Part shown: positions 3,837 to 31,797 of the stretch, one piece after another
Layout of the letters: the number at the start of each line of letters is the position of its first letter
How positions within the stretch are numbered: the stretch's first letter is position 1
DNA from: an uncultured Bacteroidales bacterium
Lineage (GTDB): Bacteria > Bacteroidota > Bacteroidia > Bacteroidales > Bacteroidaceae
Assembly: GCA_945833885.1 (NCBI GenBank)
Contig: CAMAFY010000032.1
Coordinates: 1 to 34,360 of the forward strand
Reading direction: 5' to 3'
DNA: 34,360 bases
Program-made: the position numbers and the translations under genes
The notes under the pieces: generated by a model
Databases searched by the model: none
Seen by the model: only the letters and a program-made list of their open reading frames with translations
Told to the model about the DNA's origin: nothing

Positions 3837-3946
3837 TTCCGGCTTGAAGCACTCAATTTTCCGGCTTGAAATATTCAATTTCCCGGCTTGAAATATTCAA
3901 AATTTCGGTTTGAAGTACTCAGTTTCCCGGTCTGAAATGTTCAGGG
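3837..3946. repeat. 22-bp tandem array A (five units)
   Basis: Five consecutive 22-bp units start at 3837, 3859, 3881, 3903 and 3925. Each begins with a form of TTCCCGGCTTGAA and continues to a TTCAA-like half, so most units carry a small inverted repeat TTGAA-N3-TTCAA. In the fifth unit both arms change together (CTGAA/TTCAG). The fifth unit contains the stop codon of the minus-strand gene (3941-3943), and a weak sixth unit runs into its last codons. There are no spacers between units. Confidence 0.85.
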
Positions 3947-6900
3947 TTTCAGCACGAAGCCCACCTTTTTCTTGCCGTCCATCTTGATACATAAGGGTTG
4001 CGGGAACCTTACGTGCCGCACATGTTCCAGTTCCTCTACGGCGGGTAGGGCGTCGAGTGCCGCCTGATTGTAAATGCCGTCGCCGATATGCGGGTTGATG
4101 GTAAAGTATCCGACACCGAAAGATGTGAGGTTTTGGAAGAAATGTGTGCCTTGCGAGGGGTCGATTCTGTAGTTGGTCAGACCTGCTTCCACGATGATTC
4201 GTGCCGCACAGATGTCGGACCATTTGATGGGAATGCCCAACCATGGGTCGCTCGATCCCCAGCGTCCGGGTCCAATCAGCACGTAATGCGGGCCCTCATC
4301 GCCGCCTTCTCCATTGATGATGTTGGGGTCGGGCACCATCTGTTGCAGGAATTTGGCGTTGATTTTCGCCACTTCCTCAGCGATGGTGCGGTTGTCGGCG
4401 GGGTTATAGTCCTCGCCATTGCGTCCGGTCTTCACGTAAACGACGTCGCAGATGTTGTCCATTACGCCGTGACCAAGGGCATTGTCGGAGCGCAGCACCA
4501 CCTGTTCTGGCAGAATCTTCGATGTATCGATGCTGACATCCGCCTTGATGTCTACCATTGGACGGATTTGCAGCAGGTAGAACACGGCGGTCCGCTGCCG
4601 GGCGTCAATGTTCATGGCGAATTCTATCTCCACTGGCCGCTGCATTGCCCGCTCTCCGTGGCTCAGAACCTGCTGGAGGATGGCCGGCAACGGCAGGACA
4701 TTGTGTTGGAGGACACCGGCAAACGTCATCACTTTACGCCCGCCGGGATAGATGCCGGGCAGGAGACTGTCGGAGTGAACGTCGTAAGTCGAGGCCAGGA
4801 ATTGCAGGGAACCGTCGGCGTCTGCCTGTCTTACGGGCAGATGGCTCAGGTTGAAACCGTCGTCGATGCTGAAGTTCTCGCCGTGGTTTTTGAGGTCGAG
4901 GGCATAAAACTGCGTCTGTGTCTCGCGGAGTGCCAGCCTTGTCTCCGAGGTTTGCAGCACTTTCCCCGGGTGGTAGGGCGAGAATCGCAGCGTCGTTCCG
5001 CCGTCGACGATGTATTTTCCCAATCCGAGCGCCAGATTGACGATGCCTTCTTCGGGGCGTTCCTCGCCCAACGGGTAGTAGTTCAGCGAGCGTCCGACAC
5101 CGGAGATCGAGGGATAGTAGTTCTCGCCGTGCTGTGTTCCCACCACTTCTTGAAGGATTACCGCCATTTTCTCCTGGTCAATCACATTCCGAGTGGCCTG
5201 CATGTAGGCTTTTGAGTCGTGGTAATAGACGGAAGCATAGACACCTTTGATGGCATCCTGCAACATCCTCAGCATCTCCTTGTGGTCGTCGAGGTAAGGA
5301 ATCATGTAGGTGGCATAGATTCCGGCAAAGGGTTGGTAGTGGCTGTCCTCCAGAAGGCTGCTTGAACGTACGGCAATCGGGCAGCGTGTGGCGTTGATGA
5401 AGGCCTCGCAGTCGCCGATAAGTTCGTCGGGAAGCCGGGCATTGCGGAAGGCTTCGAGGATGGTGGCGTCGGGGGCGTCGGAGAGTGCCAGCGGATACAG
5501 CGCGTTCTGGTCCATGAAGTGTTCGAAGATGTCGGTACAGAGTACCACAGTCTTCGGTATCATCACCGTGGTGTTTTCCCATTCATTCAGTTCAGGATGA
5601 TGCTTCACCATGCGGTCAATGAATGCCAGTCCGCGGCCTTTTCCTCCAAGACTGCCCTCACCGATGCGGGCGAAGTTCGAATAACGATCGAAACGTTCAC
5701 GGTGGAACACCGCCACAACACCCTGGTTCTTCATCCTCCGATACCGCACAATGGCCTCGAAAATCATCTGCCTGTGGTCGTCAAGATTCTGGAAATCGTT
5801 GATGCTGAGTTGCTTGATGAACTCCGCAGGTGGGAACAATGCGCGGCTATACAGCCAACGGCTGATGTGGTTTCGCCGTATATGATAGAGGAAACTGTCG
5901 GAAGGGATGTCGAAAATGCAGTTCTGCAGTTCCTTTAAGTTGTGAACTCTCATCACTTCCTCCATGGTTTCGGGATTTTTGAAGATGAAATCACCGAAGC
6001 CGAACGTCTCTCTTACCGCCTCGCGCAGGTCAATATTCATCTTCTTGCTGTTCTTGTCGATGAAACTTGCCCCGATTTCCTCCACGTACGCGGCGTTGTT
6101 GCTCTCGGCACTCTGAAGAATGAGCGGCAGGTAGCAGTCGCGGCTGTGTATTTCGCGGAGAAGTTTCACGCCTGCAAGGGGATCTTTGGGGTTGTTCCCC
6201 TTAGGATAGCGTGCGTCAGATATGACTCCGAGGACGTTTTTCTGGTACTTCTCATAGAGATCCATGGCCTCCTCGTAGGTTCGTGCGAGCACAATCTTCG
6301 GTCGTCCGCGCATTCTCAGCGTCCTTTGGTGGCCGTTCAGGGCCTCTGTCGCAAAGTCGAGGCTCTGTTGCAGCACGAATTTATAGAGTTCCGGCAACAC
6401 GGAGGAATAGAAACGTATGCCGTCTTCCACCAGAAGTATCATCTGCACACCCACCTCCTGCACATCATGTTCAAGATTCATCTTGTCTTCGATGAGTTTA
6501 ATGATGGAAAGTAGCAGGTCGGTGTTCCCAAGCCAGCAGAAAACGTACTCGAAAATGCTGAGGTCTTCGTGCTCCATTCTGGCGGTGATGCCGTGACTGA
6601 AGGGTGTAAGCACCACCAAAGGCAGTTCCTGATAGCGGTTTTTGATGGAGCGTGCGATGTCGAAGACGTCCGAAGAGTCGGCACTTGGCATGACGATGAC
6701 CAGGTCGAAGTTGTTGAGCGCCAGGTGTGTGTCGGCCTCCGCCTTGGTGGATACCAGGGTGAAGCGCGGAGGATAGCGCAGTCCGAGCGAGGCATATTCG
6801 TCGAAAAGTTTCTCTTCGATGCGTCCGTCATCCTCAAGCATGAAGGCATCATACGGGTTTGCGATGAGCAAAACGTTGAAGATGCGCTTGAGAATGAGGT

Positions 6901-6955
6901 TCACGTAGTTCGTATCCTTGAAGTAAAGTTGGTTAAGTTTCAGTCTGCTGAGCAT
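3941..6955 (-). CDS. Receiver-like plus PEP/pyruvate-binding (PPDK N-terminal) protein
   Basis: The predicted product is 1004 residues. Residues about 25-160 and 170-310 look like two receiver-type (CheY-like) domains. The first carries a hydrophobic strand ending FDLVIVMPSADSSD, the second VLGVISDARYP with an Asp in the phospho-acceptor position. Residues about 425-820 are a pyruvate phosphate dikinase/PEP synthase nucleotide-binding domain, with glycine-rich GEGSLGGKGRG, the family motif CPIAVRSSSLLEDS near 525-537, and the closing motif LLQIRPMV. The last 180 residues match nothing I can name. The phosphohistidine swivel domain and the PEP-binding TIM barrel of true PEP synthases are absent, so normal PEP synthesis is unlikely. 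The frame extends upstream to 7219, but the ATG at 6955 (MLSRLKLNQLYF) follows a promoter-like -7 box and starts the recognisable protein. It is convergent with glmM. Confidence 0.8.
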   Translation of the reverse strand: MLSRLKLNQLYFKDTNYVNLILKRIFNVLLIANPYDAFMLEDDGRIEEKLFDEYASLGLRYPPRFTLVSTKAEADTHLALNNFDLVIVMPSADSSDVFDIARSIKNRYQELPLVVLTPFSHGITARMEHEDLSIFEYVFCWLGNTDLLLSIIKLIEDKMNLEHDVQEVGVQMILLVEDGIRFYSSVLPELYKFVLQQSLDFATEALNGHQRTLRMRGRPKIVLARTYEEAMDLYEKYQKNVLGVISDARYPKGNNPKDPLAGVKLLREIHSRDCYLPLILQSAESNNAAYVEEIGASFIDKNSKKMNIDLREAVRETFGFGDFIFKNPETMEEVMRVHNLKELQNCIFDIPSDSFLYHIRRNHISRWLYSRALFPPAEFIKQLSINDFQNLDDHRQMIFEAIVRYRRMKNQGVVAVFHRERFDRYSNFARIGEGSLGGKGRGLAFIDRMVKHHPELNEWENTTVMIPKTVVLCTDIFEHFMDQNALYPLALSDAPDATILEAFRNARLPDELIGDCEAFINATRCPIAVRSSSLLEDSHYQPFAGIYATYMIPYLDDHKEMLRMLQDAIKGVYASVYYHDSKAYMQATRNVIDQEKMAVILQEVVGTQHGENYYPSISGVGRSLNYYPLGEERPEEGIVNLALGLGKYIVDGGTTLRFSPYHPGKVLQTSETRLALRETQTQFYALDLKNHGENFSIDDGFNLSHLPVRQADADGSLQFLASTYDVHSDSLLPGIYPGGRKVMTFAGVLQHNVLPLPAILQQVLSHGERAMQRPVEIEFAMNIDARQRTAVFYLLQIRPMVDIKADVSIDTSKILPEQVVLRSDNALGHGVMDNICDVVYVKTGRNGEDYNPADNRTIAEEVAKINAKFLQQMVPDPNIINGEGGDEGPHYVLIGPGRWGSSDPWLGIPIKWSDICAARIIVEAGLTNYRIDPSQGTHFFQNLTSFGVGYFTINPHIGDGIYNQAALDALPAVEELEHVRHVRFPQPLCIKMDGKKKVGFVLKP

Positions 6956-6988
6956 GGTGTAAGTGTAAACTAATGTTTTACATTCAAG

Positions 6989-6996
6989 CAAAATTA
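6989..6996 (-). promoter_or_regulatory. Possible -7 box for the receiver/PPDK-like gene
   Basis: On the minus strand this reads TAATTTTG, 34 nt upstream of the start codon at 6955. No good TTTG is found 19-21 bp further upstream, so the call rests on the -7 element alone. Confidence 0.4.
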
Positions 6997-7061
6997 ACTT
7001 TTTTTGCGCTCCGAAATCCTCTTTGTGCGGAAAAAAACGGCATTTTCGCCGTAATTTACCG

Positions 7062-7069
7062 TAAATTTG
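7062..7069 (+). promoter_or_regulatory. Possible -7 box for the HAD phosphatase gene
   Basis: TAAATTTG fits TAnnTTTG and lies 52 nt before the ATG at 7122. A matching upstream TTTG at proper spacing is not evident. Confidence 0.35.
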
Positions 7070-7121
7070 CCTTGAACAATACCTGCAAAAACCTTGAACG
7101 TCTCCCACAAACGATAAGGAA

Positions 7122-7844
7122 ATGGAACCACGTCCCGCATTCATCTTCGACCTCGACGGCACACTTCTCGACACGCTTGCCGACCTTGCCGCCGCCACCA
7201 ACCATGCTCTTGCCGCCAATGGCCTGCCTCTGCGTACCCTGAGTGAGGTGCGTCAGATGGTGGGGAACGGCGTTCGCCGCCTGATGCTCCGTGCTGTCCA
7301 CGAGCCTTTGTCGCCCGACGGGGGCAAAACGTGGGTGAAACATCCCGTACTTTCCCTCCCCGACGGTTCGCTGCATCCGTTGTTCGATGCCGTTTTCGCC
7401 GAATTCAAACGCTATTATGTGGCGCATTGCCGCGACTGCACGCGCCTCTATCCCGGCATAGCCTCCATGCTCGATGCCCTCCGGCGCCGTGGTTGCCGGC
7501 TCGCCGTTGTGAGCAATAAGTTGCAGGCCGGCGTCACAGAACTCCGCGACGCCTACTTTTCGGAATGGATGGACGTGGCCATCGGTGAGCGCGAAGGCGT
7601 GGCCCGCAAGCCCGACCCCGCCATGCTCCATGCCGCCATGCAGGCGTTGGGGGCTGAGGCGTCGGACACCTTCTACGTCGGCGACAGCGAGGTCGACATC
7701 CTTACTGCGCGGAATGCCGGCATACCCTGCGTCTCCGTCCTCTGGGGATTCCGCGACCGCGACTTCCTGCTCCGTCATGGCGCCACCAGTTTGGCGGAGG
7801 TCCCCGACGACGTCATCGCCTTCCTCGATGCCCTCGGGCGGTAG
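7122..7844 (+). CDS. HAD-superfamily hydrolase, phosphoglycolate phosphatase-like
   Basis: The 240-residue soluble protein has the four HAD motifs. Motif I is FDLDGTLLD with nucleophile Asp10 and general acid/base Asp12. Motif II is the VVSNK stretch near residue 128, and a conserved Lys lies in ARKPDP. Motif IV is YVGDSEVDI with metal-binding Asp residues. The small alpha-helical cap between motifs I and II and the overall length match phosphoglycolate phosphatase (Gph) and pyrophosphatase PpaX-type enzymes. It most likely dephosphorylates a small phosphorylated metabolite; the exact substrate is inferred from family resemblance only. It is transcribed divergently from the receiver/PPDK-like gene, and its 3' side runs into a 22-bp array. 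Confidence 0.85.
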   Translation: MEPRPAFIFDLDGTLLDTLADLAAATNHALAANGLPLRTLSEVRQMVGNGVRRLMLRAVHEPLSPDGGKTWVKHPVLSLPDGSLHPLFDAVFAEFKRYYVAHCRDCTRLYPGIASMLDALRRRGCRLAVVSNKLQAGVTELRDAYFSEWMDVAIGEREGVARKPDPAMLHAAMQALGAEASDTFYVGDSEVDILTARNAGIPCVSVLWGFRDRDFLLRHGATSLAEVPDDVIAFLDALGR

Positions 7845-7909
7845 TCAGCGGTGGTCCGTGCGGTGATGTCCGCGGAAAACCTCCGCAGGATGCTCCTTCC
7901 TGTCCAATG

Positions 7910-7998
7910 TCTTCGCCGTCTTTCCGCTCCGTCTTCGCTATTTCTCCACTCCGTCTTCCGCCGTCTTATCCCTTCGTTCCCACCCCTCCTTCCGCCCT
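7910..7998. repeat. 22-bp tandem array G (four units)
   Basis: Units begin at 7910, 7932, 7954 and 7977. The first two are 22 bp, the third 23 bp and the fourth 22 bp. Units one to three start TCTTCSSC-like and end TCCG or TTCG; the unit is pyrimidine-rich. The array lies about 65 bp after the HAD gene stop and upstream of the probable mdh promoter. A very weak fifth unit may reach 8020. Confidence 0.65.
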
Positions 7999-8106
7999 TC
8001 CATCCCGTCGAAAGCCAGGGTGAAAAGTTGCTTTTTCCGACATTTCCCACGGAAAAGAAGGACAAAAACGCCCACCTTTGCGAAAAAAACGGCACAAAAT
8101 AGCGCA

Positions 8107-8132
8107 TTGTGTAGAAATTATTTGTAATTTTG
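8107..8132 (+). promoter_or_regulatory. Probable mdh promoter
   Basis: TAATTTTG at 8125-8132 is a perfect -7 element. The nearest upstream TTG (8107-8109) leaves only 15 bp, shorter than usual, so the -33 assignment is weak. The leader to the mdh ATG would be about 200 nt. Confidence 0.45.
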
Positions 8133-8174
8133 GCACGTAAATACCCGCAGAATGCACGGCAAGTGTCCGGAAGT

Positions 8175-8218
8175 CCTCTCTGACGATGCGGAGAAGCCTC
8201 TCCGACGGTCGGGAAAAA
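8175..8218. repeat. Possible 22-bp array H in the mdh leader
   Basis: Two adjacent 22-bp units (8175-8196 and 8197-8218), both beginning CCTCTC, agree at about 16 of 22 positions. Sequence up to about 8284 can be laid out in the same period but matches poorly. It lies between the probable mdh promoter and the mdh start. Confidence 0.4.
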
Positions 8219-8343
8219 GGTGGCGGAACCATGCGGAAACCGTCGCGGATTTCCTGAAGGATTTCGCCCGCATTCTGGGAATGATGTTGAAAAACACCCG
8301 TCAGAAACGACAGAAACAATAACCCTCTAAATATTATAATCCA

Positions 8344-9336
8344 ATGGCTTTTCTTACTGAAGACAAACTTGTGATTGTTGGTGCTGGTGGAATGATCGGT
8401 TCCAACATGGTTCAGAGCGTCCTGATGCTCGGTCTCACCCCTAACATTTGCCTGTACGATATCTATGAACCCGGCGTACATGGCGTGTACGATGAGATGT
8501 GTCACTGTGCTTTTCCCGGAGCGAATCTCTCCTACACTGTTGACCCCGAGGTAGCATTTACCGGAGCAAAGTATATCATTTCATCCGGTGGCGCTCCCCG
8601 TAAGGATGGCATGACCCGTGAGGACCTCCTCAAAGGTAACTGCCAGATTGCCGCAGAATTCGGTGAAAACATCAAGAAGTATTGCCCCGATGTGAAGCAT
8701 GTTGTGGTGATTTTCAACCCTGCTGACGTTACTGCCCTCACCGCTTTGATCCACTCCGGTTTGAAGCCCAACCAACTGACATCCCTTGCCGCCCTCGACT
8801 CTACCCGCCTGCAGCAGCAACTTGCTCAGGAGTTCGGCGTTCAGCAGGACAAGGTTACCAACGCCTACACCTATGGTGGCCACGGCGAACAGATGGCAGT
8901 CTTCGCTTCAAAGGCAATGGTTGACGGCAAGCCTCTCGCTGAACTTCCCCTCAGCGACGAGCGTTGGGCAGAGATTAAGCACATGACCATCCAGGGAGGT
9001 TCCAACATCATCAAACTCCGTGGCCGTTCTTCTTTCCAGAGTCCTGCCTATCAGGCTGTGAAGATGATCGAAGGTGCTATGGGCGGAGAGCCCTTCACCT
9101 GGCCCGCAGGATGCTATGTCAACTGCGATAAGTGCGGCTTCAAGAATGTGATGATGGCTATGCCTACCGTCATTGACAAGGATGGTGTTCACTTCACCGC
9201 CCCCGAAGGCACCCCCGAAGAAATGGCATCTCTGGCCGCTTCTTACGAACATCTGCAGAAGATGCGCGATGAAATCATCTCGCTTGGCATTATTCCCGCA
9301 GTTGAAGATTGGAAGAACGACAATCCCAACCTTTAA
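8344..9336 (+). CDS. mdh: Malate dehydrogenase
   Basis: The 330-residue member of the LDH/MDH family interconverts malate and oxaloacetate with NAD in the cytosol. The dinucleotide-binding loop is VGAGGMIGS (residues 12-20). Substrate-binding arginines lie in GGAPRKDGMTREDLLKGN (Arg86, Arg92), with FNPADV as the cofactor/substrate Asn loop and Asp152/Arg155 in the LDSTR motif. The catalytic histidine is His180 in YGGHGEQM; this motif has Glu where many MDHs have Asp after HG. Length and sequence fit the Bacteroidales enzyme used in the reductive branch to succinate. Monocistronic: its own probable promoter lies about 210 bp upstream and a strong terminator follows. Confidence 0.9.
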   Translation: MAFLTEDKLVIVGAGGMIGSNMVQSVLMLGLTPNICLYDIYEPGVHGVYDEMCHCAFPGANLSYTVDPEVAFTGAKYIISSGGAPRKDGMTREDLLKGNCQIAAEFGENIKKYCPDVKHVVVIFNPADVTALTALIHSGLKPNQLTSLAALDSTRLQQQLAQEFGVQQDKVTNAYTYGGHGEQMAVFASKAMVDGKPLAELPLSDERWAEIKHMTIQGGSNIIKLRGRSSFQSPAYQAVKMIEGAMGGEPFTWPAGCYVNCDKCGFKNVMMAMPTVIDKDGVHFTAPEGTPEEMASLAASYEHLQKMRDEIISLGIIPAVEDWKNDNPNL

Positions 9337-9389
9337 TTAAATCCTGCGGCAGGCCGTAATCTCCGGCTCTGCTGACAGCAAAACCTTAT

Positions 9390-9431
9390 ACTGCACAGGC
9401 TTTCCTCCGTGAAGGTTCTGTGCAGTTTTTA
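9390..9431 (+). terminator. Rho-independent terminator after mdh
   Basis: ACTGCACAG (9390-9398) pairs with CTGTGCAGT (9418-9426), with an inner CTTTC/GAAGG stem, followed by a T-run at 9426-9430. It lies 54 bp after the mdh stop. Confidence 0.88.
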
Positions 9432-9526
9432 TTTGTTCCAGCGGAGAAATCCGCCGTAAAAAGCCGTGTCCCTGATATGGAAGCACAGGTATCTGCCGTT
9501 TCGGCATGCGGGATGACGCCACAAAA

Positions 9527-9658
9527 TAGCGGATCTTCGTGGCGGAATGTTCCGAGGTTTGCATTGAAAAGTTCGGATGTTTCTGCCCGAAAGTACGGAG
9601 GTTTACAAAAGAAAGTTCCGAGTACTTCGATGCGTAGTACGGAAGGCTTCAATGCAGA
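9527..9658. repeat. 22-bp tandem array B (five clear units, one weak)
   Basis: Clear units begin at 9549, 9571, 9593, 9615 and 9637, all exactly 22 bp. They start GTTCCGAG, GTTCGGAT, GTACGGAG, GTTCCGAG and GTACGGAA and mostly end in an A-rich GAAAA-like tail. A weaker unit fits 9527-9548. The array lies between the mdh terminator and the helix-turn-helix gene. The sequence from 9659 to 9940 shows no further convincing unit and no gene. Confidence 0.8.
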
Positions 9659-9940
9659 ATGCGTAGGATGGTACGGGCTGCAATGGGCTTTCCATGTCGG
9701 GGAAGAGGCTGTTTCGCGTAATTCCTTCGATATTAGACGTAATAAATGCTGTGATTATCCTTAATTTTTCGGAAGAAAATCGTAATTTCGCGGAAATTTT
9801 TTAATCGCAAAGTAAGTGTCCATAATCAATTTATGCTTAAAACGCCGATGTCTTTTTGACGGTTTCGTACTATATGGTCGGGAATAACAAGCCGGAAGTA
9901 TAAAAGATGAATCAGCCTTACTTATAAATAGAATAATCTT

Positions 9941-11080
9941 ATGTTCGTCGTTAACGAAGACCTTATCCGTAGGCTCCACAAAATGTTGGGGCTCTCCCAA
10001 CGCCGTTTTTCTGAGGAGACATTCTCACATAACCAAGTATGGCCGCAGCGCATGACCTTCTTCAACCGTATGCTGCTCAGCGATCTGGTAACCATCTCCA
10101 ACCATTGGCACATCCCCATCCGTTACCTCATCCGCAAAGATACGGAGACCGAGCCGCTGATGTCCGTCGATGACATTGTCTATCAGGGCGATTGGCGCGA
10201 GGTGAAGTTGAACGTCGATGCTTTCCGCCGCGTCTATCAGACGGCATGTGCAAGGAAGGGCCGCAAGAATGTCCACGATGCCCTGGGCGTCACGGCGTCC
10301 TGTATATGGCGATGGCTGACTGTCCGCTTCACCGTCCGCGCGCAAATGGTGTGCGATTTCTGTAACTTCACGGGAGTTGACCTGCTGGATTTCGTCAGAG
10401 ACCCCAACTGGAAGGCGATGAAATCCGCTCCTCTCCACGCCCAAAACCAGCCGTCGCCGACGCCAGTCTACGAAGGTTTTTTCAGCGCCGGCGTAGCGAA
10501 TACCGAGGATGTGCTGGCTTCGCTGACGCGACTTCAAAGCGAGAACATGGTGCTTTCCGCCAGTGTGCGCAGCCTTCGCCAGCAAATGGAGCAGGTGCGC
10601 GGCATTCTCCTGACCCTCGATGGCGTTTCCCCCGCGTCAACAGCGCCGCAGACGGTGGAAATCCTCCGTGCCTTCGGTTTTGCGGGTAGCGAAAGTCTGT
10701 TCACTCCCTACGGTTGGCAGGGCGATGCTTGGGGCGAGGGTGTTCCTACGCTTGAGGATTTCGTGGCGCGCTGCAATGAGCGTCAGGAATCCACCTCGCG
10801 CTTTCTGGTTCTTCCTGCCGTGGCGGCCATCTTCAATGCCGGTGCCTTGCGTCCGGCGGACGGCGCCTTCCAACCCATTCTTCTGCACGACGACGCGCTC
10901 GATTACGTGATGAAGGCAGCAGGGCTTGACGTTCCGAACGCGCGGAGCGTCAGTGTGGCCGACTTCTGCTGCGCTTTGAATGCCCTTCATCTTACCCCCG
11001 CGTGCTGCATCGACGATGTCAACACCTGCTATCCTCCGCTTTTCGCCGACAAGATGGTGCGCGAACTCGCCGGGAAATGA
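9941..11080 (+). CDS. Helix-turn-helix/coiled-coil protein of unknown function
   Basis: I do not recognise this 379-residue protein. Residues about 5-66 and 92-154 each look like a small helix-turn-helix fold: the first carries LHKMLGLSQRRFSEETF, the second VHDALGVTASCIWRW. The second is followed by a segment reminiscent of XRE-type regulators (FCNFTGVDLLDFV). Residues about 190-224 (SLTRLQSENMVL onwards) form a probable coiled coil. The C-terminal 150 residues contain several cysteines (DFCCALNAL, ACCIDDVNTC) but no motif I can name. There is no signal peptide or membrane segment, so it is probably a cytosolic DNA-binding protein. The start ATG follows an AT-rich stretch without a Shine-Dalgarno. 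It stands alone, with array B upstream and a hairpin terminator downstream. Confidence 0.7.
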   Translation: MFVVNEDLIRRLHKMLGLSQRRFSEETFSHNQVWPQRMTFFNRMLLSDLVTISNHWHIPIRYLIRKDTETEPLMSVDDIVYQGDWREVKLNVDAFRRVYQTACARKGRKNVHDALGVTASCIWRWLTVRFTVRAQMVCDFCNFTGVDLLDFVRDPNWKAMKSAPLHAQNQPSPTPVYEGFFSAGVANTEDVLASLTRLQSENMVLSASVRSLRQQMEQVRGILLTLDGVSPASTAPQTVEILRAFGFAGSESLFTPYGWQGDAWGEGVPTLEDFVARCNERQESTSRFLVLPAVAAIFNAGALRPADGAFQPILLHDDALDYVMKAAGLDVPNARSVSVADFCCALNALHLTPACCIDDVNTCYPPLFADKMVRELAGK

Positions 11081-11167
11081 GGGGCTGACCGACGGCATCT
11101 GTTGCGATATAGGCGGATACTGTAAATTATCATCGCACTTTAAGTCTGCAAAAACTGATTGTTGAAC

Positions 11168-11265
11168 CCGCATGGGGTGAAATCCATGCGGCTGTAAGCA
11201 TCCGCGATTTCCGCATATTCTGCTGAAATCCCCTTCCGTCACACCCTGTCGGCAGGGGATTTTGC
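11168..11265 (+). terminator. Two hairpins after the helix-turn-helix gene, second terminator-like
   Basis: CCGCATGG (11168-11175) pairs with CCATGCGG (11184-11191) across an 8-nt loop. Further on, AAATCCCC (11226-11233) pairs with GGGGATTT (11255-11262) across 21 nt, followed by TTTGCGTTT. The second is the probable terminator of the upstream gene; the role of the first is unknown. Sequence from 11270 to 11440 shows no gene. Confidence 0.6.
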
Positions 11266-11443
11266 GTTTGACGTGCGCGTCGGCAACGCCGGAAGAATGC
11301 TTTTCGGGAGCGGGGAGATGCAGCGTTTCATGCCGACACCTTTAGGGCCGGAGGAGGGAAATGCCCGTTTTCCTGCCATTTGCATATCTGAAAACCTGAC
11401 AAGTTTTCCTCGGAAGGTGGCCGGAAAGTTCCACAAAGGGTAC

Positions 11444-11476
11444 AAAAAAACGGCATGCAGAATCCTCTGCACGCCG
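11444..11476 (-). terminator. Rho-independent terminator for the 41-residue gene
   Basis: CGGCATGCAGA (11451-11461) pairs with TCTGCACGCCG (11466-11476), with one mismatch and a 4-nt loop. On the plus strand seven A residues (11444-11450) precede it, so on the minus strand a U-run follows the stem. This orients it for transcripts coming from the right. Confidence 0.8.
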
Positions 11477-12050: not shown

Positions 12051-12080
12051 CAAAATTAGATTTTTCTTCACCCTTGTCAA
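12051..12080 (-). promoter_or_regulatory. Promoter for the 41-residue gene
   Basis: On the minus strand TTG (12080-12078) and TAATTTTG (12058-12051) are separated by 19 bp. The -33 region sits in the palindrome CCCTTGTCAAGGG. Start of transcription near 12044 would leave a leader of about 245 nt, which also holds a hairpin CTGC-TCCA/TGGA-GCAG at 11897-11919. No other gene is visible between 11799 and 12050. Confidence 0.55.
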
Positions 12081-16776: not shown

Positions 16777-16931
16777 CGAAGTTTTATCTTTGTAATTTTA
16801 AGGAAGATCTCTTGTAATTTCAAGGAAAATTTCTTGTGATTTCAATGAAATTCTTGCATTCTTTTGAAGAAATACTCTTGTCCTTTCGAAGCCCTTTCCT
16901 TTGTAATTTCAAAGAACTTCTCTCGTGTTTT
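16777..16931. repeat. 22-23-bp tandem array C (about seven units)
   Basis: Units start at about 16777, 16798, 16820, 16842, 16864, 16886 and 16909. The middle four are exactly 22 bp, the last two 23 bp. The consensus resembles TCAAGGAARWTYTCTTGTAA followed by TT. The array lies between the convergent fusion gene and GH130 gene, before the terminator at 17007. The rest of this gap holds no gene. Confidence 0.8.
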
Positions 16932-19774: not shown

Positions 19775-19884
19775 GATGTTTGCGGATAAAACCTTTGATG
19801 TTTGCAGGCAAAACCTTTGATGTTTGCGGGCGAAACCTTTGATGTTTGCGGGCAAAACCTTTGGTGTTTGCGGCTTGTGCTTTG
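19775..19884. repeat. 22-bp tandem array D (five units), in the symporter leader
   Basis: Units begin at 19775, 19797, 19819, 19841 and 19863. The first four are nearly identical (GATGTTTGCGGGCAAAACCT plus TT, two or three changes each); the fifth keeps the first eleven positions only. A weak unit may precede 19775. It is the best-conserved array in the window. It lies between the predicted symporter transcription start (about 20002) and its start codon (19699), so it would be transcribed. Confidence 0.92.
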
Positions 19885-24296: not shown

Positions 24297-24396
24297 GCCG
24301 AACACGGCACAATCCATCTATGGGCATCCTTTTTTTCCCCTTCAAGAACAAACATCTGACGACCGTTTTTCCGGTCTTGTCATCAACAATCCTGCT

Positions 24397-25629: not shown

Positions 25630-25699
25630 CATCTCCGCATCCTTTTGTTTCCGAAGGGCGGCAAAACGCGCCCCTCTATGCAATAAATAATATGTGCGT

Positions 25700-25720
25700 T
25701 GGTGATTTATAGAACCCGCC
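25700..25720 (+). repeat. Third copy of the ATTTATAGAACCC motif, upstream of ridA
   Basis: The 21 bp here match the copy at 18251-18271 at 18 positions, and all three differences are A/G changes. It lies 135 bp before the ridA start. No promoter could be fitted in the gap 25630-25855, which is AT-rich near the start codon. Confidence 0.5.
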
Positions 25721-25855
25721 ATAACTGAATGTGCGGAATGGAATTTGGCACATAAACAATATGAATTCCGCCTGATTTCATTCGCTTACTGCACAAATGG
25801 ATATTACATACTACACAATATAAATATTATATAACCATCATTCATTCCCCAAACC

Positions 25856-26233
25856 ATGAACAAACCCGTATCCACTGCCGCCGCTCCTGCCGCCATCGGT
25901 CCGTACAGCCAGGCTGTCGTTGCCGGTAATATGCTGTTCGTCAGCGGACAACTTCCCATCAATCCCGCCACAGGAGAATTTGCCGAAGGCGGCATAAAGG
26001 AACTCACAACCCAGTCCCTCAAGAATCTTTTCGCCATTGTTGCCGAGGCCGGTTTCCAGCCTTCCGACATTGTGAAGACCACCGTCTTCCTTGCCGACAT
26101 GGCGGATTTTGCCGAGATGAACGAGGTCTATTCCCAGTTTTTCTCCGCTCCCTTCCCCGCACGTTCCGCCGTTGCCGTGAAGACCCTCCCGAAGGGTGCC
26201 CGTGTGGAGATTGAGTGCATTGCCGCCCGTTGA
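25856..26233 (+). CDS. ridA: RidA-family enamine/imine deaminase
   Basis: The 125-residue cytosolic protein hydrolyses reactive enamine/imine intermediates such as those from serine/threonine dehydratase, protecting PLP enzymes. The family signatures are present: AIGPYSQAVVAGNMLFVSGQ near the N-terminus, and the C-terminal ARSAVAVKTLPKGARVEIE. The latter contains the Arg (in PARSAV) that binds the substrate carboxylate and the Glu near the end. Length matches the trimeric YjgF/YER057c/UK114 family. It is a single gene with a near-perfect terminator immediately downstream. Confidence 0.93.
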   Translation: MNKPVSTAAAPAAIGPYSQAVVAGNMLFVSGQLPINPATGEFAEGGIKELTTQSLKNLFAIVAEAGFQPSDIVKTTVFLADMADFAEMNEVYSQFFSAPFPARSAVAVKTLPKGARVEIECIAAR

Positions 26234-26258
26234 CGGACATTCCTGTACAAAAGCGCGT

Positions 26259-26305
26259 AAGGCTTCCAGACGCTGCCGCATGATGGCGTCTGGAAGCCTT
26301 TGTGT
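26259..26305 (+). terminator. Rho-independent terminator after ridA
   Basis: AAGGCTTCCAGACGC (26259-26273) pairs perfectly with GCGTCTGGAAGCCTT (26286-26300), a 15-bp stem with a 12-nt loop, followed by TGTGTTTGTG. It lies 25 bp after the ridA stop. The minus-strand GH27 transcript also ends toward this hairpin. Confidence 0.88.
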
Positions 26306-26479
26306 TTGTGCTGTAAACGGCAATGCTGATTCGTCGGTTCAGCCTTTTGCCCGAAAAGGATTTACAATCTTTTTAGGTGACAGATGGGGACATTCCGTTT
26401 GCAGTCAGCGCATTTTTCGTATCAAAGTCTGTCTGTTCCCACCATCCATATCATAGCATAAGGGGGTAGGAGGAGGGCT

Positions 26480-28084
26480 TTACCGCGCGAGACGTTTGAG
26501 CCTGAAGCAGTCGATGTCAGGCGTCCAGCCGTAGGCATTCCCCATTGTGATGCGGTTGAAGCCGGGGTTGAGGCGGACACGCACGGTTGTCGATGCCAAC
26601 TTCTGTCCGTCGTTGCGTGGCGATTCGGGGACGATGTTGATGGGCGATTCTTGGTTGATGGCAACCTCAATCTTGCTGTACGGGCGCGGAACATAGTCGA
26701 TGGTCATCAGATAGTCCCCACCGTTCTCGCTGTAAACCTCGTCCCAGACGGCGTGGTTCTCGCGACGTCCGCCCAGATATTGCAAGACTGTCCCTCCCGA
26801 AGCCTCGGGGCATGGAGCGTAGAACACGTCCTTTTCCGTCTTTCCAAGGTCTTGGAAACAAGGCAGATACGCCCATTCCGCCTCATAGATTTCGGGTTCC
26901 GTCCGCCCTTCGCCCTCCACTCGCAGTATCTTCACGCTGTGAGGCTGAAGGCAGGCGCGGAGGATTCCGTCGCGGACGTCTGGCAAGTCGCGGCGCTGCA
27001 CCAAATCGCGCACCCTCAGTGTTCCCGACAGTTCAAGGTCTTTTGTGGCTATTTCCATGTCGCACGGGCTTTCCGAAGGGTTGTAGAACGCCACAGCACG
27101 TGTGTTTCCCCGCAACTTTCCGATGTCTTTCGCCAGGATGTAACCCTCGCCGACGCGCAGGATGACCTTCGCCTGACGGCCGAGAGGGTCCTGGTTGACG
27201 GCAATCAGTTCCTCGTTCGACAGCAGCCGGAGCGAGGCGTCGGGGATGTTTGTCAGGTCGCACCCGATAAGAAGGGGTGAGGACATCATGCACCAGATGC
27301 CGAAATGAACCTCCTCTTCCGACGGAGAAAGCCCACGTCCGATTTCAAGCATGTCCATGTCGTTGTAGTGCCCGTCGCGGCAATAGGCCGAAAGATACAG
27401 GTTCTTGCCGATGATATGTTTGACGGAATTCCAGTCGGGGGCGATGTCTCCGCTGATTCTCCACGATTGCGCAAGGTCCTTTGCCCAAGTTCCGGGAAAC
27501 GCCCAGCGGCAGATGTTGATGGAAACGTTGCCGCATCCGACGTCGTCGAAGGCGCGTCGGATTTCCGAATAGCGGCGTTCCTCGTCGAGATTCAACTCCT
27601 GTCCGGCCCCGCAATAGTCGATTTTGATGAAGTCGAACCCCCAGTCCTTGAAATAAAGTTCGGCATCCTCGTGCTCGTGTCCGTAAAGTCCGGCACCGAC
27701 ACCATTGACATCGTTGTCCCAAATGGAGCCGCAGGTGTTGCTTCCGGCGTCAGAATAGATGCCGGCCTTCAATCCTAAGGCGTGGATATGTTCGGCGATT
27801 CCTTTCAGCCCATCGGGAAAACGTTCGGGATGGGTGTGCATTTTGCCGTCGGCATCGCGGTGGCCGAAGAATCCGTCGTCGATGTTGATGTAGCGGTATC
27901 CCTTGTCTTTCAGCCCCAACTCCACCATGGCCCCGGCCTGTCTGCGGATAAGCCTGTCATTGATGTCCACACGATAGGTGTTCCAGGAACTCCATCCCAT
28001 GATGGGAGGCTCGAAGTTCCGTTGCTGTGCTGTGGCAATCATGGTGCCGGCGGGCAGGAGGAAGGCAAGAAGAAGTCGGTTCAT
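26480..28084 (-). CDS. Exported GH27 alpha-galactosidase with C-terminal carbohydrate-binding module
   Basis: The 534-residue enzyme removes terminal alpha-linked galactose. A signal peptide (MNRLLLAFLLPAGTMIATA) directs it to the periplasm or cell surface. The family 27 barrel starts PPIMGWSSWNTY. The nucleophile is Asp156 in FIKIDYC and the acid/base Asp213 in RISGDI. The YINIDDGFF and WCMMSSPLLIG motifs are also typical. After the beta-sandwich, residues about 400-534 (starting IYEAEWAYL) look like a CBM35/CBM6-type module, ending in IDCFRLKRL. It stands alone with its own promoter and no SusC/D partner. Specificity for galactose over N-acetylgalactosamine is assumed from family resemblance. 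Confidence 0.93.
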   Translation of the reverse strand: MNRLLLAFLLPAGTMIATAQQRNFEPPIMGWSSWNTYRVDINDRLIRRQAGAMVELGLKDKGYRYINIDDGFFGHRDADGKMHTHPERFPDGLKGIAEHIHALGLKAGIYSDAGSNTCGSIWDNDVNGVGAGLYGHEHEDAELYFKDWGFDFIKIDYCGAGQELNLDEERRYSEIRRAFDDVGCGNVSINICRWAFPGTWAKDLAQSWRISGDIAPDWNSVKHIIGKNLYLSAYCRDGHYNDMDMLEIGRGLSPSEEEVHFGIWCMMSSPLLIGCDLTNIPDASLRLLSNEELIAVNQDPLGRQAKVILRVGEGYILAKDIGKLRGNTRAVAFYNPSESPCDMEIATKDLELSGTLRVRDLVQRRDLPDVRDGILRACLQPHSVKILRVEGEGRTEPEIYEAEWAYLPCFQDLGKTEKDVFYAPCPEASGGTVLQYLGGRRENHAVWDEVYSENGGDYLMTIDYVPRPYSKIEVAINQESPINIVPESPRNDGQKLASTTVRVRLNPGFNRITMGNAYGWTPDIDCFRLKRLAR

Positions 28085-28223
28085 AGGGCGTTTCTGTTCG
28101 GAGTAAATACTGTGGATGCGTGGCGTTTCCGCGTCTTTCGTGCGTCTGTGTGTCCGTCCGGTTGTGTTTTTTCGTATGGATTTTCCGGGCGCTTGCAGGG
28201 AAGAAAGCGGTAGCCTTCAAGTG

Positions 28224-28254
28224 CAAAGATACGGTTTTGTGGCAGATGTGCAAA
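28224..28254 (-). promoter_or_regulatory. Promoter of the alpha-galactosidase gene
   Basis: On the minus strand TTTG (28254-28251) and TATCTTTG (28231-28224) are 19 bp apart. The leader to the start codon at 28084 would be about 130 nt. Confidence 0.7.
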
Positions 28255-28331
28255 GGATTTTCTTGCGCTTTCCCGTCTTTTCCCGAGCAACTTCCGCAAA
28301 GTCGGAGTCCTTCTCCGCAGGATGGTGTGGA

Positions 28332-28419
28332 AAACATCGGAACTTTCCCTTGCAAACATCGGAACAATCAGGCACGAAGTTCCGCATTTCCTGTTGAAAA
28401 GTTCCGCACTTTTTCAGCC
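28332..28419. repeat. 22-bp tandem array E (four units)
   Basis: Units begin at 28332, 28354, 28376 and 28398, all exactly 22 bp. The first two share AAACATCGGAAC; the last two share AAGTTCCGCA and a TTTC-type centre. A degenerate unit may precede 28332. The AAAGTTCCG core is shared with array B. It lies between two divergent promoters and is transcribed by neither. 28420-28640 holds no recognisable gene. Confidence 0.78.
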
Positions 28420-28641
28420 CGCCCTCCGGATGTGGAAATCCAGGTTGCCGCGCTTGACGGATGCAGTCGCGGACAGCCTGAAAAGTATGCCCGGAAAACG
28501 GACGGTAAAGTTGAGGCGAAAACGTCGTTCGCGCAATGCCCTTTCAGCGGGAATGCGGTAAAATCTTATGGGAAAGCCCCTGTGCCCGATGGCAGAAGAC
28601 GGGCGCGCCGGGAGTTTTTGGCGGTTTTCTGCGCATAATTT

Positions 28642-28672
28642 TTTGCCGTTTGGATAAAAAATCGTACTTTTG
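28642..28672 (+). promoter_or_regulatory. Promoter of the NlpC/P60 gene
   Basis: TTTG at 28642-28645 and TACTTTTG at 28665-28672 are 19 bp apart. This placement rules out an in-frame TTG at 28670 as start codon and supports the GTG at 28715. Confidence 0.77.
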
Positions 28673-28714
28673 CCAACAGTTTTTCTGAAAAATACGACAA
28701 AAACAGCGCTAAAA

Positions 28715-29362
28715 GTGAGATTTAAGAACTTTATTCTGGGCTCGATAATGGCCGTTGCCGCATGGATAGCGGCGGCGAACAGTATCGGTGTCCAGGCACG
28801 ATATGAGGACGATGTGACGGAGTATTCCGCACTGATCGCCGGCGATTCGCTGCCTATGCAGGCGAAGGTGGAGCGCACCCAACAGCAGTTGGCGGCCATC
28901 AGCCTTGTGAATGTGGCGAAAAATCAGGAAGGTGAAGCACCGGCTTCCTTGAAGAGCGCATCGGAAAGCCTCCTCGATAACCTCCTCGCCACCGCGCATA
29001 AGTACATCGGCGTCAGATACCGCAGCGGACATAGCGGGCCTGACGGTTTCGACTGTTCGGGATTTACCAGTTACATCTTCCGTCAGTACGATATCAAACT
29101 CACGCATTCCTCGCGTGCGCAGTACAATGAAGGAGAGCGGATTTCCGACATCGCCAGTCTGAAGAAGGGCGATTTGGTGTTCTTCGGAGGCAGCCGTTCG
29201 TCGAAGAATATCGGACATGTGGGAATCGTTACGGAGGTTGACCCTACAAACCGCAGTTTCAAATTCATACATGCCAGCACTTCGAGCGGCATAAAGGTCG
29301 ATTCCTCGCTTGACCCCTACTACACCCGTCGTTACGTTGGTGCGTGCCGCGTGGTGCAATAA
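28715..29362 (+). CDS. Exported NlpC/P60 cell-wall peptidase
   Basis: The 215-residue protein is a cysteine peptidase of the NlpC/P60 family, which cleaves peptide stems of peptidoglycan in the periplasm. From a GTG start the N-terminus MRFKNFILGSIMAVAAWIAA is a good signal peptide with cleavage near VQA-RYE. The catalytic domain follows after about 65 residues. Cys114 is in GFDCSGFTSY, His168 in IGHVGIVTEV, and the third polar residue is His186 in KFIHAST. There are no LysM or SH3 modules. The frame opens at a TTG at 28670, but that lies inside the -7 box. No clear terminator follows. Confidence 0.9.
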   Translation: MRFKNFILGSIMAVAAWIAAANSIGVQARYEDDVTEYSALIAGDSLPMQAKVERTQQQLAAISLVNVAKNQEGEAPASLKSASESLLDNLLATAHKYIGVRYRSGHSGPDGFDCSGFTSYIFRQYDIKLTHSSRAQYNEGERISDIASLKKGDLVFFGGSRSSKNIGHVGIVTEVDPTNRSFKFIHASTSSGIKVDSSLDPYYTRRYVGACRVVQ

Positions 29363-29945
29363 GCCGCGGCAGGCGTAGCCATTCACGGCCGAAACAACAA
29401 CAAATCAAGGTGGCAACCTGCGGAAGCCGCCTGAGTGACATCGATAATCAAGGGCTGTCGTTTTTCCACGGCTCCCATCTATAAAAATAAAGGCGCGTCG
29501 GAAGAAGTGACGATTTTCCGCACAAAGCGTGGAAAAGAGGCGTGCCGACAAATTGCAAAAAGAAAGGAGGGTAGTTTTTTCACTTGGGACAAGCGTCGAG
29601 CGTTTCCCCAAGCAGCAAACCTGAGAACAAAATTTTAAGGTAGGTTCCACAAATCCGATTTTATTGGATTTCGGGTCCATTCCGGGATAAAAACTTCTGT
29701 AAATAAGGGAACGTAGCGTGCTATGTGACTGAATGAGCAGGATTTATAACCGAAAAGCCATTCGCGAATGTGAAGATCGTCAGATTCCGTTCGCTGACTT
29801 TGCCGGGAACAAGACCGCAAAACCCAATGATGGATATTTGGAGAACCGCACCTTTGCCGCATCACATTCCCCCAAAAAGGTCGTATCGACCTGACACTTC
29901 AAGCATAAATATTGCGCGAAGACCGAAAAAATCCCCCTAAATTTA
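29363..29945. other. Long intergenic region without recognised gene
   Basis: Nearly 600 bp separate the NlpC/P60 gene and the rpsU promoter. Small stems occur, such as CTTGGG/CCCAAG (29583-29612), AAATCC/GGATTT (29651-29671) and GGTCG/CGACC near 29880. Short frames on both strands (for example minus 29635-29865) have no protein-like features that I trust. No 22-bp array is seen. A non-coding RNA cannot be excluded. Confidence 0.4.
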
Positions 29946-29975
29946 TTTGCAATTTCACAATATTACGTAATTTTG
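29946..29975 (+). promoter_or_regulatory. rpsU promoter
   Basis: TTTG at 29946-29949 and TAATTTTG at 29968-29975 are 18 bp apart, giving a leader of about 70 nt before rpsU. The -7 box overlaps the palindrome ATTACGTAAT. Confidence 0.66.
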
Positions 29976-30029
29976 CGCCTCGAATCTCTGTAAAACGGAT
30001 TCGCAAAAGACAAGATTATTACGTAATAA
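29962..30029. promoter_or_regulatory. Pair of ATTACGTAAT palindromes at the rpsU promoter
   Basis: The 10-bp palindrome ATTACGTAAT occurs at 29962-29971, overlapping the -7 element, and again at 30018-30027 within the leader, where it extends to the 14-bp palindrome TTATTACGTAATAA (30016-30029). The copies are 56 bp apart. This is a plausible operator pair; the binding protein is unknown. Confidence 0.5.
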
Positions 30030-30053
30030 CAATAAAAAAAGTCACACAACACT

Positions 30054-30245
30054 ATGATCGTAGTACCCATCAAAGAGGGCGAGAACATCGAACGCGCTCT
30101 CAAGAAGTTCAAGAGAAAGTTTGAAAAGACCGGCATTACCAAGGAACTCCGCCGCCGTCAGCAGTTCGACAAGCCCAGCGTTACCAAGCGTCTTGCTATG
30201 GAACACGCTATCTATGTTCAGCAACTTCGTCGCAACGAAGAATAA
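30054..30245 (+). CDS. rpsU: 30S ribosomal protein S21
   Basis: The 63-residue product is the small, basic bS21 protein of the 30S subunit, near the anti-Shine-Dalgarno end of 16S rRNA. The sequence MIVVPIKEGENIERALKKFK, the central ELRRRQQFDKPSVTK and the C-terminal RRNEE fit the Bacteroidetes form. In this phylum S21 takes part in keeping the anti-Shine-Dalgarno sequestered, consistent with the absence of Shine-Dalgarno sequences in the genes here. It has its own promoter with a palindrome pair and a strong terminator about 150 bp downstream. Confidence 0.96.
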   Translation: MIVVPIKEGENIERALKKFKRKFEKTGITKELRRRQQFDKPSVTKRLAMEHAIYVQQLRRNEE

Positions 30246-30393
30246 TCCTTGAAATGTTTTCTCCGTTTTCCCGTCATGGCAGACCGCGAACGGCCTACGC
30301 TTGTTTCGGCACAGCCTGCATGATTTGATGGAGACGGATCCCGGCCAGATTCGACGTTCTCGTCCCTAAATCCGGCGGGAAACAGAAAAATGG

Positions 30394-30441
30394 GCATCGC
30401 TTTCAGTAAAACACTTTTGCTGAATGCGATGCTTTTTCTTT
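30394..30441 (+). terminator. Rho-independent terminator between rpsU and the Xer gene
   Basis: GCATCGC (30394-30400) pairs with GCGATGC (30426-30432), with an inner TTCAG/CTGAA stem, followed by TTTTTCTTTT. It is inside the open frame upstream of the recombinase, which supports the later start at 30657. The rest of 30246-30656 shows no gene. Confidence 0.85.
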
Positions 30442-30656
30442 TATGGCGACTTCTGGAGAATCGGTCCGTAAAACGCAATTCCACGTATTCCGGAAAAGAA
30501 ATTGCGGCAGGGAGCGGTGAAGTCTTGCCTTATGATGATGCTGGAGAGCGATGTTTCCCGCTCCGGACTGTTGAGGACGGACCGGGCACAATCCGTCCCG
30601 TTCGAAAGGTTTGGCGGAAATTGCACACTTGTTTACGCACAACAACACACGAAAAA

Positions 30657-31619
30657 ATGGATACAAGAATGGAGGAGATGCAGACGTGGGTGGAGGATTT
30701 CCTCACATACCAGGCTGCCCAGCGCGGAGCATTGCCGCGGACAATCGACACCTATCGCGTGGTGTTGAAGTATGCCATGGAGTATTTTGTGGCATCCATC
30801 CCCGCAGAGCGCAGGTGTATGTGGGACGCGTTTGGGACCGACGACCTCCGTTCGTGGGTGGCGGAGCAGATGCAGCGCGGCTGTGCGCCGGCGTATGTGC
30901 GGAGAAATGTCGCCACGTTGCGCTCGTTCTATCGTTTCCTGCTCCGTGAGAAACGGGTGAAAACCGACCCCGCACGACTCCTGAAAGCCCCCAAACAGCC
31001 CAGACGTCTGCCGACATTCGTCAAGGAATCCGAACTGGACCGCCTTTTCGAATACTATCCTTTCGGCGACGGATATGAGGGGATCCGCGACCGTACCATG
31101 CTGCTCATGCTCTACCATACCGGTATGCGCTCGGCGGAACTGCTGGGATTGCAGTTCGCCGACCTGAACATGGCGGAAAACAGTTTGAAGGTTACGGGAA
31201 AGGGCGACAAGCAACGTGTCATACCCTTTGGGAAGGAGTTGGCGGACACATTATATATATATATAAAGGAGTGGCGCGAATTTATGGGCGTTTCGGAAGG
31301 GGAGGGGGCGACATTGCCGCTCTTCGTGAATTCGCGGCGCCGCAGATTCTCCTATAACGAACTGCTGAAACTTGTACACGAAGCCCTTGGAGCCGTGACG
31401 ACCCAGAAGAAAAAGAGTCCGCATGTGCTGCGCCATAGTTTCGCGACCGCCATGTTGGCGAACGGCGCCCAACTTGAAGTCATCCAGCAACTCCTGGGAC
31501 ATGCCAGTGTCGCTACGACGGCCATCTACACCCACACCACATTGGCGGAACTGAAAGACCAGTATCGTATGGCACATCCGAGGAACGATTCTGACGGCAG
31601 CGACGATAAGGGGGAATGA
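30657..31619 (+). CDS. xerC: Tyrosine recombinase, XerC/XerD-type
   Basis: The 320-residue site-specific recombinase is probably one partner of chromosome-dimer resolution at dif. An N-terminal SAM-like core-binding domain (residues 8-100) precedes the catalytic domain. The full active site is present: Arg158 in TGMRSAELLGL, Lys182/185 in TGKGDKQRVIP, His256 and Arg259 in SPHVLRHSFAT, His282 in LLGHAS, nucleophile Tyr291 in TAIYTHT. The length and the location in the conserved rpsU-hpf-tuf cluster argue for a housekeeping Xer protein, not an element integrase; XerC versus XerD cannot be settled from sequence alone. The start ATG at 30657 (MDTRMEEM) comes after the terminator; 30669 is an alternative. 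A (TA)7 run lies inside the gene at 31252-31265. Confidence 0.88.
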   Translation: MDTRMEEMQTWVEDFLTYQAAQRGALPRTIDTYRVVLKYAMEYFVASIPAERRCMWDAFGTDDLRSWVAEQMQRGCAPAYVRRNVATLRSFYRFLLREKRVKTDPARLLKAPKQPRRLPTFVKESELDRLFEYYPFGDGYEGIRDRTMLLMLYHTGMRSAELLGLQFADLNMAENSLKVTGKGDKQRVIPFGKELADTLYIYIKEWREFMGVSEGEGATLPLFVNSRRRRFSYNELLKLVHEALGAVTTQKKKSPHVLRHSFATAMLANGAQLEVIQQLLGHASVATTAIYTHTTLAELKDQYRMAHPRNDSDGSDDKGE

Positions 31620-31665
31620 CATCCTCCGCCCTTTTTCCGCCGGAAACGCAGTGTCCCGGAGTTGA

Positions 31666-31797
31666 AAGACGGACCTTCACGCCGCGTTTCCCAATTCATC
31701 GCCAAGAATTTCTCAATTCGTCGTTGCGTCTTTTTCAGATCACCAATGAACGTTTCCCGGTTTATCGCTGCCCGTTTTTCAATATTTTTACGTTTGG
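31666..31797. repeat. 22-bp tandem array F (five units and one partial)
   Basis: Units begin at 31688, 31710, 31732, 31754 and 31776, all exactly 22 bp, with a weaker one at 31666. Each starts TTYYC (TTCCC, TTCTC, TTTTC, TTCCC, TTTTC) and most end in a CGT-like triplet. The TTCCCGG start of the fourth unit resembles array A. It lies between the recombinase stop and the hpf promoter. Confidence 0.78.

Follow-up and report, generated by a model that had tools for sequence, protein, structure and literature searches.

Intergenic DNA of an uncultured bacterium of the Bacteroidaceae carries clusters of a 15-bp dyad set at exact 22-bp steps, and these clusters are probably operator-like modules, specific to the species, on which a protein assembly built of dimers would advance two helical turns from site to site. 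The stretch analysed (the window, 34,360 nucleotides) is the complete contig C32 (CAMAFY010000032.1) of genome bin G000 (GCA_945833885.1; 3.11 Mb, 87% complete). Because of its RecJ identities (92% to two uncultured Bacteroidales bins, 84% to Alloprevotella sp. OH1205_COT-284 and 75% to Alloprevotella tannerae) we assign G000 to Alloprevotella-like Bacteroidaceae. An initial annotation of the window had listed seven intergenic arrays of abutting 22-bp units, here A to G, whose unit sequences differ between loci, and had suggested that a bound factor reading two helical turns might set the period. The observation is confirmed and is stronger than first stated, and a bound factor of this kind is largely supported and appears to be the best-supported cause.

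The 22-bp period is a property of the whole genome. The lag spectrum was taken from 805 kb sampled out of 3.1 Mb, with coding and intergenic DNA separated by the crude gene calls of our own codon-usage script. Intergenic segments number 90 at lag 22, against 9 at lag 21, 4 at lag 23 and 3 at lag 20, and each of the remaining lags between 8 and 41 has 0-3. Within the first 434 kb there are 51 segments at lag 22, 7 at lag 21 and none at lag 23. A single Markov shuffle of the same 434 kb gave no segment at any lag from 9 to 80, and an Escherichia coli K-12 control (50 kb) gave one segment, at lag 18, over lags 15-30. After merging, 98 of 102 arrays are intergenic, while the other 4 are coding and have a period of 21, a multiple of three. 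A genome-wide autocorrelation and a shuffled control had been proposed in the initial annotation as checks on its fixed period, and both bear it out. The intergenic rhythm survives masking of the detected arrays (z of 21, 22 and 20 at lags 22, 44 and 66); older, degenerate arrays therefore exist beyond those counted. One array is counted twice in the sets of 51 segments, 90 segments and 102 arrays, as well as in those of 87 arrays and 207 pairs used below, and was dropped from later counts, because contigs C19 and C20 (L027, L028) are identical where sampled (20 kb, 100% matching in intergenic regions, 48-bp offset). The two are probably a duplicated contig within the bin.

A common motif underlies many of the differing units. 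Comparison of unit profiles in all rotations, with single linkage, joins 48 of the 87 arrays of 22-bp period into one core family, with 759 profile pairs above the threshold vs 3.7 expected; four of the 48 are weak members that match the family average below the pair threshold. The family core is a 15-bp dyad, AAAGTKCSGMACTTT-like, with half-sites that include AAAGTGC, AAAGTTC and AAACATC. Short cores common to several arrays, as the initial annotation had seen them, are thus borne out, but its statement that the period does not reflect shared ancestry was too strong. Scored blindly over whole arrays, dyad symmetry is barely above that of shuffles (mean 3.9 vs 3.4, 64 arrays).

The spacing of the cores is nearly invariant, as 192 of 200 site pairs spaced 20-24 bp at a matrix score of 10, and 165 of 167 pairs under 25 bp apart at a score of 12, are separated by 22 bp. 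The linkers, 6-7 bp long between variable cores, have diverged: neighbouring units mismatch at 60% of linker vs 26% of core positions (207 pairs). As this measure picks the units by their core, it was repeated with units defined by register alone, which gave mismatches of 45% in linker columns vs 12% in AAA/TTT columns (43 arrays). Linkers are also nearly array-specific, with 12 identical 7-mers among 18,114 between-array pairs (2.9 expected). The two halves of a site vary independently. At positions 4, 5 and 6 of 150 distinct G000 sites the half-sites match at frequencies of 0.34, 0.48 and 0.42, compared with 0.39, 0.56 and 0.38 expected under independence. On the sequence evidence, independent half-sites argue against a conserved hairpin and for recognition by two protein subunits.

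The clusters also have a favoured size. Exactly four sites are found in 43 of 65 chains (~785 kb of G000), and four remains the commonest number whichever matrix threshold between 6 and 13 is set. Slippage during replication, in steps of 22 nt, would yield neutral minisatellites, and arrays of that appearance do exist, namely array E of the window and, outside the core family, nearly identical repeats of up to 14.8 units. Slippage does not lead one to expect diverged linkers at fixed spacing, a favoured site number, or one motif skeleton that recurs at 22 bp in one species and at 21 bp in another, and we regard it as a highly improbable account of the clusters. Local duplication, which the initial annotation had offered as one possible origin, is insufficient as the main cause given the diverged linkers and the four-site peak; it does explain homogenised, degenerate arrays such as E.

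A related species has the same design with a step shorter by one base. In Prevotellaceae bacterium Marseille-P2826 (G033), which belongs to the same genus as G000, 13 of 16 intergenic arrays have a period of 21 (542 kb). A dyad with the G000 skeleton, AAAYSTCSGASRTTT, is common to 10 of these 13, site spacing is 21 bp in 50 of 52 cases, and the half-sites (99 sites) show no excess pairing over chance. We ran an exact two-site pattern over 58 genomes of the genus. At 22 bp it occurs 267 times in G000, 4 times in G214, twice in G169 and once each in G033 and G004; at 21 bp the counts are 23 in G033, 6 in G169, 2 in G000 and 1 each in G011 and G019. The remaining genomes of the 58 have zero matches at either spacing. 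A reversed control pattern matched twice in G000 and 9 times in G012 (both at 22 bp) and 20 times in A. tannerae (G093, at 21 bp), the last because of that species' own motif. The nine matches in G012, obtained over its whole genome, suggest that it carries one more motif family.

Other relatives use unrelated motifs. Among five genomes searched, the motif CAAAC-N4-GTTTG forms 89 pairs at 21 bp and no pair at 22 bp in G093; pairs of AGAAWWTTCT at 21 bp number 90 in G020 and 45 in G008, again with none at 22 bp. Among the matches listed, G093 has four sites (counted as GTTTG-N7-CAAAC) in 17 of 20 loci and G020 has three in 19 of 20, where only the upper limit of the site number is informative, since both patterns already require nearly three adjacent sites and the G020 count looked at five positions only. 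Few site pairs in the relatives match the G000 core matrix: three at 21 bp and one at 30 bp. Dyad symmetry reaches p<=0.05 in 40 of 112 array rows from relatives, with one array counted twice. Across the named RecJ loci of the family (1.45 Mb) there are 29 segments at lag 21 and 38 at lag 22, with no more than 8 at any other lag from 12 to 40, while single stretches from 20 genomes of other Bacteroidales families (337 kb) contain 1 intergenic segment at lag 21 and none at lags 22 and 23. In G004, 11.6 kb of intergenic sequence contain no segment at lags 20-23, and presence within the genus is therefore uneven.

Side-by-side dimers are the best explanation of these patterns because the half-sites are independent, the step is fixed while linkers drift, a site number is favoured and the sister species is one base shorter. 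In such an arrangement each ~15-bp dyad would be read by one protein dimer, and neighbouring dimers, placed along one DNA face with two helical turns from one to the next, would touch. Contacts between dimers would fix the centre-to-centre step (22 bp in G000, 21 bp in several relatives) and leave the linker free to change. The favoured site number (four in G000 and G093, three in G020) may correspond to a defined assembly, for example of four dimers, and some clusters would grow by local tandem duplication into homogenised, degenerate arrays. The period, the dyad with its independent halves, the diverged linkers, the favoured number in G000 and the species-specific motif and step are observed; protein binding, oligomerisation and any role such as chromosome organisation are what we infer from them.

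To place the clusters among genes we used 60 G000 clusters with at least three core sites, which occur in every class of intergenic region. Gaps between convergent genes hold 15 of the 57 clusters with both neighbours known and make up 39 of 315 regions of at least 150 bp, an excess with p of 0.001 if clusters are treated as regions. In the 33 co-directional cases the median distance is 252 bp to the upstream stop and 494 bp to the downstream start. The word TAnnTTTG, which we take to be the promoter-like Bacteroides -7 box, is rarer in the flanks of clusters (15 in 18.0 kb vs 317 in 208 kb).

Several observations weigh against a protein-read module. The core family leaves out 39 of the 87 arrays. 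These may be decayed, locally re-amplified relatives of core arrays; at positions 4880-5040 of L026 a derived repeat follows on gradually from core sites, with the register unchanged. Helical A/T phasing, measured by the second harmonic, is pronounced in core arrays (z 11.2) and weak or absent elsewhere (z 2.7, -1.6, 1.5 and -2.6), so that an 11-bp phasing confined to core arrays was dropped as a general rule. One step past the four-site clusters the mean matrix score is -5.2 vs a background of -11.5, and 5 of 86 such positions score at least 6; the ends are therefore not perfectly sharp. Chains in G033 run from 2 to 6 sites with no sharp peak. Among 121 reciprocal best hits between G000 and G033 none has an array on the same side in both (~3 expected); with positions not common to the two species, no conserved target gene is therefore seen among these orthologue pairs. 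No binding protein has been identified for the sites.

A conserved family regulator appears an unlikely reader. Proteins of the Lrp/AsnC family are encoded in all 12 genomes searched, including 3 outside the Bacteroidaceae. The BarR-type operators of octameric Lrp/AsnC proteins are described, in the available part of the source, as a line of 15-bp semipalindromes that face the same side of the helix and are each believed to contact one dimer of a DNA-wrapping octamer; the one regulated locus has 4 to 5 of them, separated by spacers of 15-17 bp (PMC10201364). The G000 clusters resemble such operators, as far as that part goes, in their ~15-bp dyads at whole-turn steps, most often four in number, and they differ in their linkers of only 6-7 bp, in the large number of clusters and in an Lrp orthologue that does not vary with the sites (PMC10201364). 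The recognition region of this orthologue is nearly equal in G093 and in G020/G008, whose sites are unrelated, which is a further point against the protein-read module, and it is equal in G000 and G025, although G025 has no site pair. We therefore disfavour the conserved orthologue, whose predicted recognition region does not follow the sites.

The last of the adverse points is that predicted RNA folds are more stable than those of shuffles, strongly so in G020. The mean fold z is -2.3 for 30 of the 43 four-site clusters of G000, -7.9 for 20 G020 loci and -3.4 for 20 G093 loci. Among the G020 elements there are long, almost perfect inverted repeats with runs of A and T on their flanks; the elements of this species fold well, carry T runs and resemble bidirectional terminators. 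The arrays could accordingly be RNA-level elements, rows of small hairpins that serve as terminators, mRNA stabilisers or sponges, and the excess in convergent gaps of G000 would suit them. Such elements would be expected to show compensatory pairing, which the half-sites lack in G000 and in G033. The median distance of the co-directional cases from the upstream stop speaks against them as well, as does the absence of orientation bias (17 vs 12 co-directional core arrays, a weak test for a near-palindrome). The arrays of the window gave no Rfam match, and neither did the 20 loci scanned out of the 40 from G020 and G093. RNA hairpins are disfavoured in G000 by the missing covariation although the predicted folds are stable, and the RNA-level regulators suggested in the initial annotation are not supported there; in G020 they may still apply. 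As a general explanation we hold them to be very doubtful.

A different possibility is that the clusters are selfish dispersed elements, in which rows of dyads are signals for a mobilising enzyme and copies spread and die without host function. Their high, species-specific copy number and the lack of common positions between G000 and G033 would fit. Two syntenic gaps that hold arrays in G000 measure 681 and 580 bp there vs 82 and 81 bp, respectively, in the relative G025, a difference that would fit gain or loss of the DNA bearing the arrays. In G025 the region upstream of recJ holds a 21-bp array whose unit is unrelated. One pair of arrays has a common 183-bp flank at 81% identity. Flanks (250 bp on each side) are otherwise barely shared, with 3 cross matches among 97 arrays vs 68-151 in five random intergenic draws, and neither the nearly array-specific linkers nor the absence of a Y1 transposase match in the carriers G033 and G169 agrees with spreading copies. 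We judge selfish elements to be unlikely, and favour protein-read modules in clusters that probably come and go between species.

Known repeat systems match the clusters in part. CRISPR is rejected, as it had been in the initial annotation, because the linkers are merely 6-7 bp long between variable cores; unique spacers and identical repeats are absent, and no cas family was found in 20 window open reading frames scanned. Plasmid iterons, considered along with parS-like sites, also line up protein sites at a distance of about two helical turns, with a sequence that differs between replicons. Iterons are direct repeats at a replication origin, unlike the dyads described here, which occupy many chromosomal places.

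BrickBuilt of Porphyromonas gingivalis, a minisatellite and miniature inverted-repeat transposable element (MITE), is described in the accessible portion of its report as 23-nt abutting repeats of one sequence in 19 copies in ATCC 33277, with leader and tail parts that have small inverted-repeat ends (PMC4596501). To judge from that portion, both systems consist of abutting, spacer-free, intergenic and species-limited repeats in Bacteroidales, whereas motifs in our case differ by array and species, flanks are barely shared and four-site clusters dominate in G000 (PMC4596501). The G000 arrays agree with the ~23-nt intergenic abutting repeats (98 of 102 intergenic, period 22). They have neither a single repeat sequence, given the 39 arrays outside the core family and the array-specific linkers, nor a common leader or tail with terminal inverted repeats (the 3 flank matches among 97 arrays). 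As these flanks have next to nothing in common, the clusters do not belong to a longer mobile element of this type, and a BrickBuilt-like MITE is rejected on the flanks and on the variable units.

Repetitive extragenic palindromic (REP) sequences and bacterial interspersed mosaic elements (BIMEs), mobilised by REP-associated tyrosine transposases (RAYTs), are likewise short, dispersed intergenic palindromes with many species-specific copies, as the consulted part of the literature has it (PMC3733652). In G000 there are 267 exact site pairs and the 43 four-site clusters. Differences from REP/BIME, within the same part, are the exact 21- or 22-bp steps, the favoured site number, half-sites that do not covary in two species and two carriers with no Y1 match (PMC3733652). 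Among nine genomes searched, Y1 transposase matches were absent from G033 and G169 and limited to a single partial one in G000, with 1 or 2 in each of the remaining 6. RAYT is thus disfavoured by the two carrier genomes, and compensatory stem changes were not seen, with no excess of half-site pairing in G000 and G033. Because some REP features are present while covariation is missing in two species and the transposase in two carriers, we file the elements among dispersed intergenic palindromic repeats, as a variant. Searches of one open-access library, outside which most subscription journals fall, turned up no recognised description of such clusters.

Repeats of other kinds were seen in relatives. 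The close relative G025 has ~2.7 copies of a nearly perfect 23-bp palindrome at each of four places (L141 9783-9846, L142 11654-11716, L143 8225-8287 and L145 10620-10681), with motif and period other than those of G000. At L150 12301-12362 G022 has ~2.8 copies of a 22-bp unit that is a perfect dyad with 10-bp arms. G009 (L175-L178) shows many lags, multiples of 8 and others (14, 16, 24, 28, 32, 35, 40), which is a different kind of short tandem repeat.

Within the window, each array was compared by its lag-22 identity with 300 Markov shuffles, the lag being left free over 15-30. Six of the seven main arrays stand out, B being the weak case, and the additional weaker array reported at first is a two-copy repeat. 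By the crude gene calls all are intergenic apart from the overlap of A with a gene end, as first described. Tandem Repeats Finder failed to detect C, F and G.

Table 1. Tandem 22-bp arrays in the window, with their shuffle tests and core sites.
Feature	Position	Strand	Description	Lag-22 identity	Shuffle test	Core starts (matrix scores) and other details
Array A	3837..3944	.	~4.9 units of 22 bp; outside core family	0.75	0/300 as good	Tandem Repeats Finder score 106; overlaps by 4 bp the end of a minus-strand gene stopping at 3941
Array B	7909..7958	.	~2.3 clean 22-bp units, weak	0.51 (7910-7998)	p=0.03 at lag 22; p=0.22 with free lag	Lag-22 segment score 18
Two-copy 22-bp repeat	8175..8218	.			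p=0.007 with free lag	
Array C	9524..9626	.	Common dyad core matched five times, in steps of 22 bp; core-family member	0.55	0/300 as good	9524 (11.6), 9546 (15.4), 9568 (18.9), 9590 (16.8), 9612 (10.1)
Array D	16790..16891	.	~4.6 units of 22 bp with small indels; outside core family	0.57	0/300 as good	Found by Tandem Repeats Finder; lag-22 segment score 34
Array E	19775..19873	.	~4.5 near-identical 22-bp units, between a sugar-symporter gene and recJ	0.83	0/300 as good	Degenerate core at 19789, 19811, 19833; core-family link weak, score 7.8
Array F	28332..28412	.	Four dyad cores at exact 22-bp steps, linkers unrelated	0.55	0/300 as good	28332 (18.9), 28354 (11.8), 28376 (12.6), 28398 (20.0); among the 43 four-site clusters
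Array G	31666..31797	.	~6 degenerate units of 22 bp, located downstream of a tyrosine-recombinase gene	0.47	0/300 as good	No core match scoring at least 9

Beyond array G, positions 32567-34275 of the window hold an EF-Tu gene with four tRNA genes around it, an ordinary arrangement.

If a protein assembly reads the modules, each species would amount to a built-in ruler experiment with one exact step throughout its genome, and sister species whose step has changed by one base would make nucleoprotein geometry readable from sequence alone. More tentatively, and with rather less confidence than we place in the modules themselves, the clusters may belong to a system that spans the Bacteroidaceae, with dozens to a few hundred modules of three to four dyads per species and a fast-evolving reader, acting in chromosome organisation or as marks of gene boundaries. 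Motif, step (21 or 22 bp) and site number would then change between species much as in satellites, each with its own reader. Should a protein assembly indeed read the modules, abundant gut and oral Bacteroidaceae would offer an unstudied system for organising the chromosome or marking boundaries.

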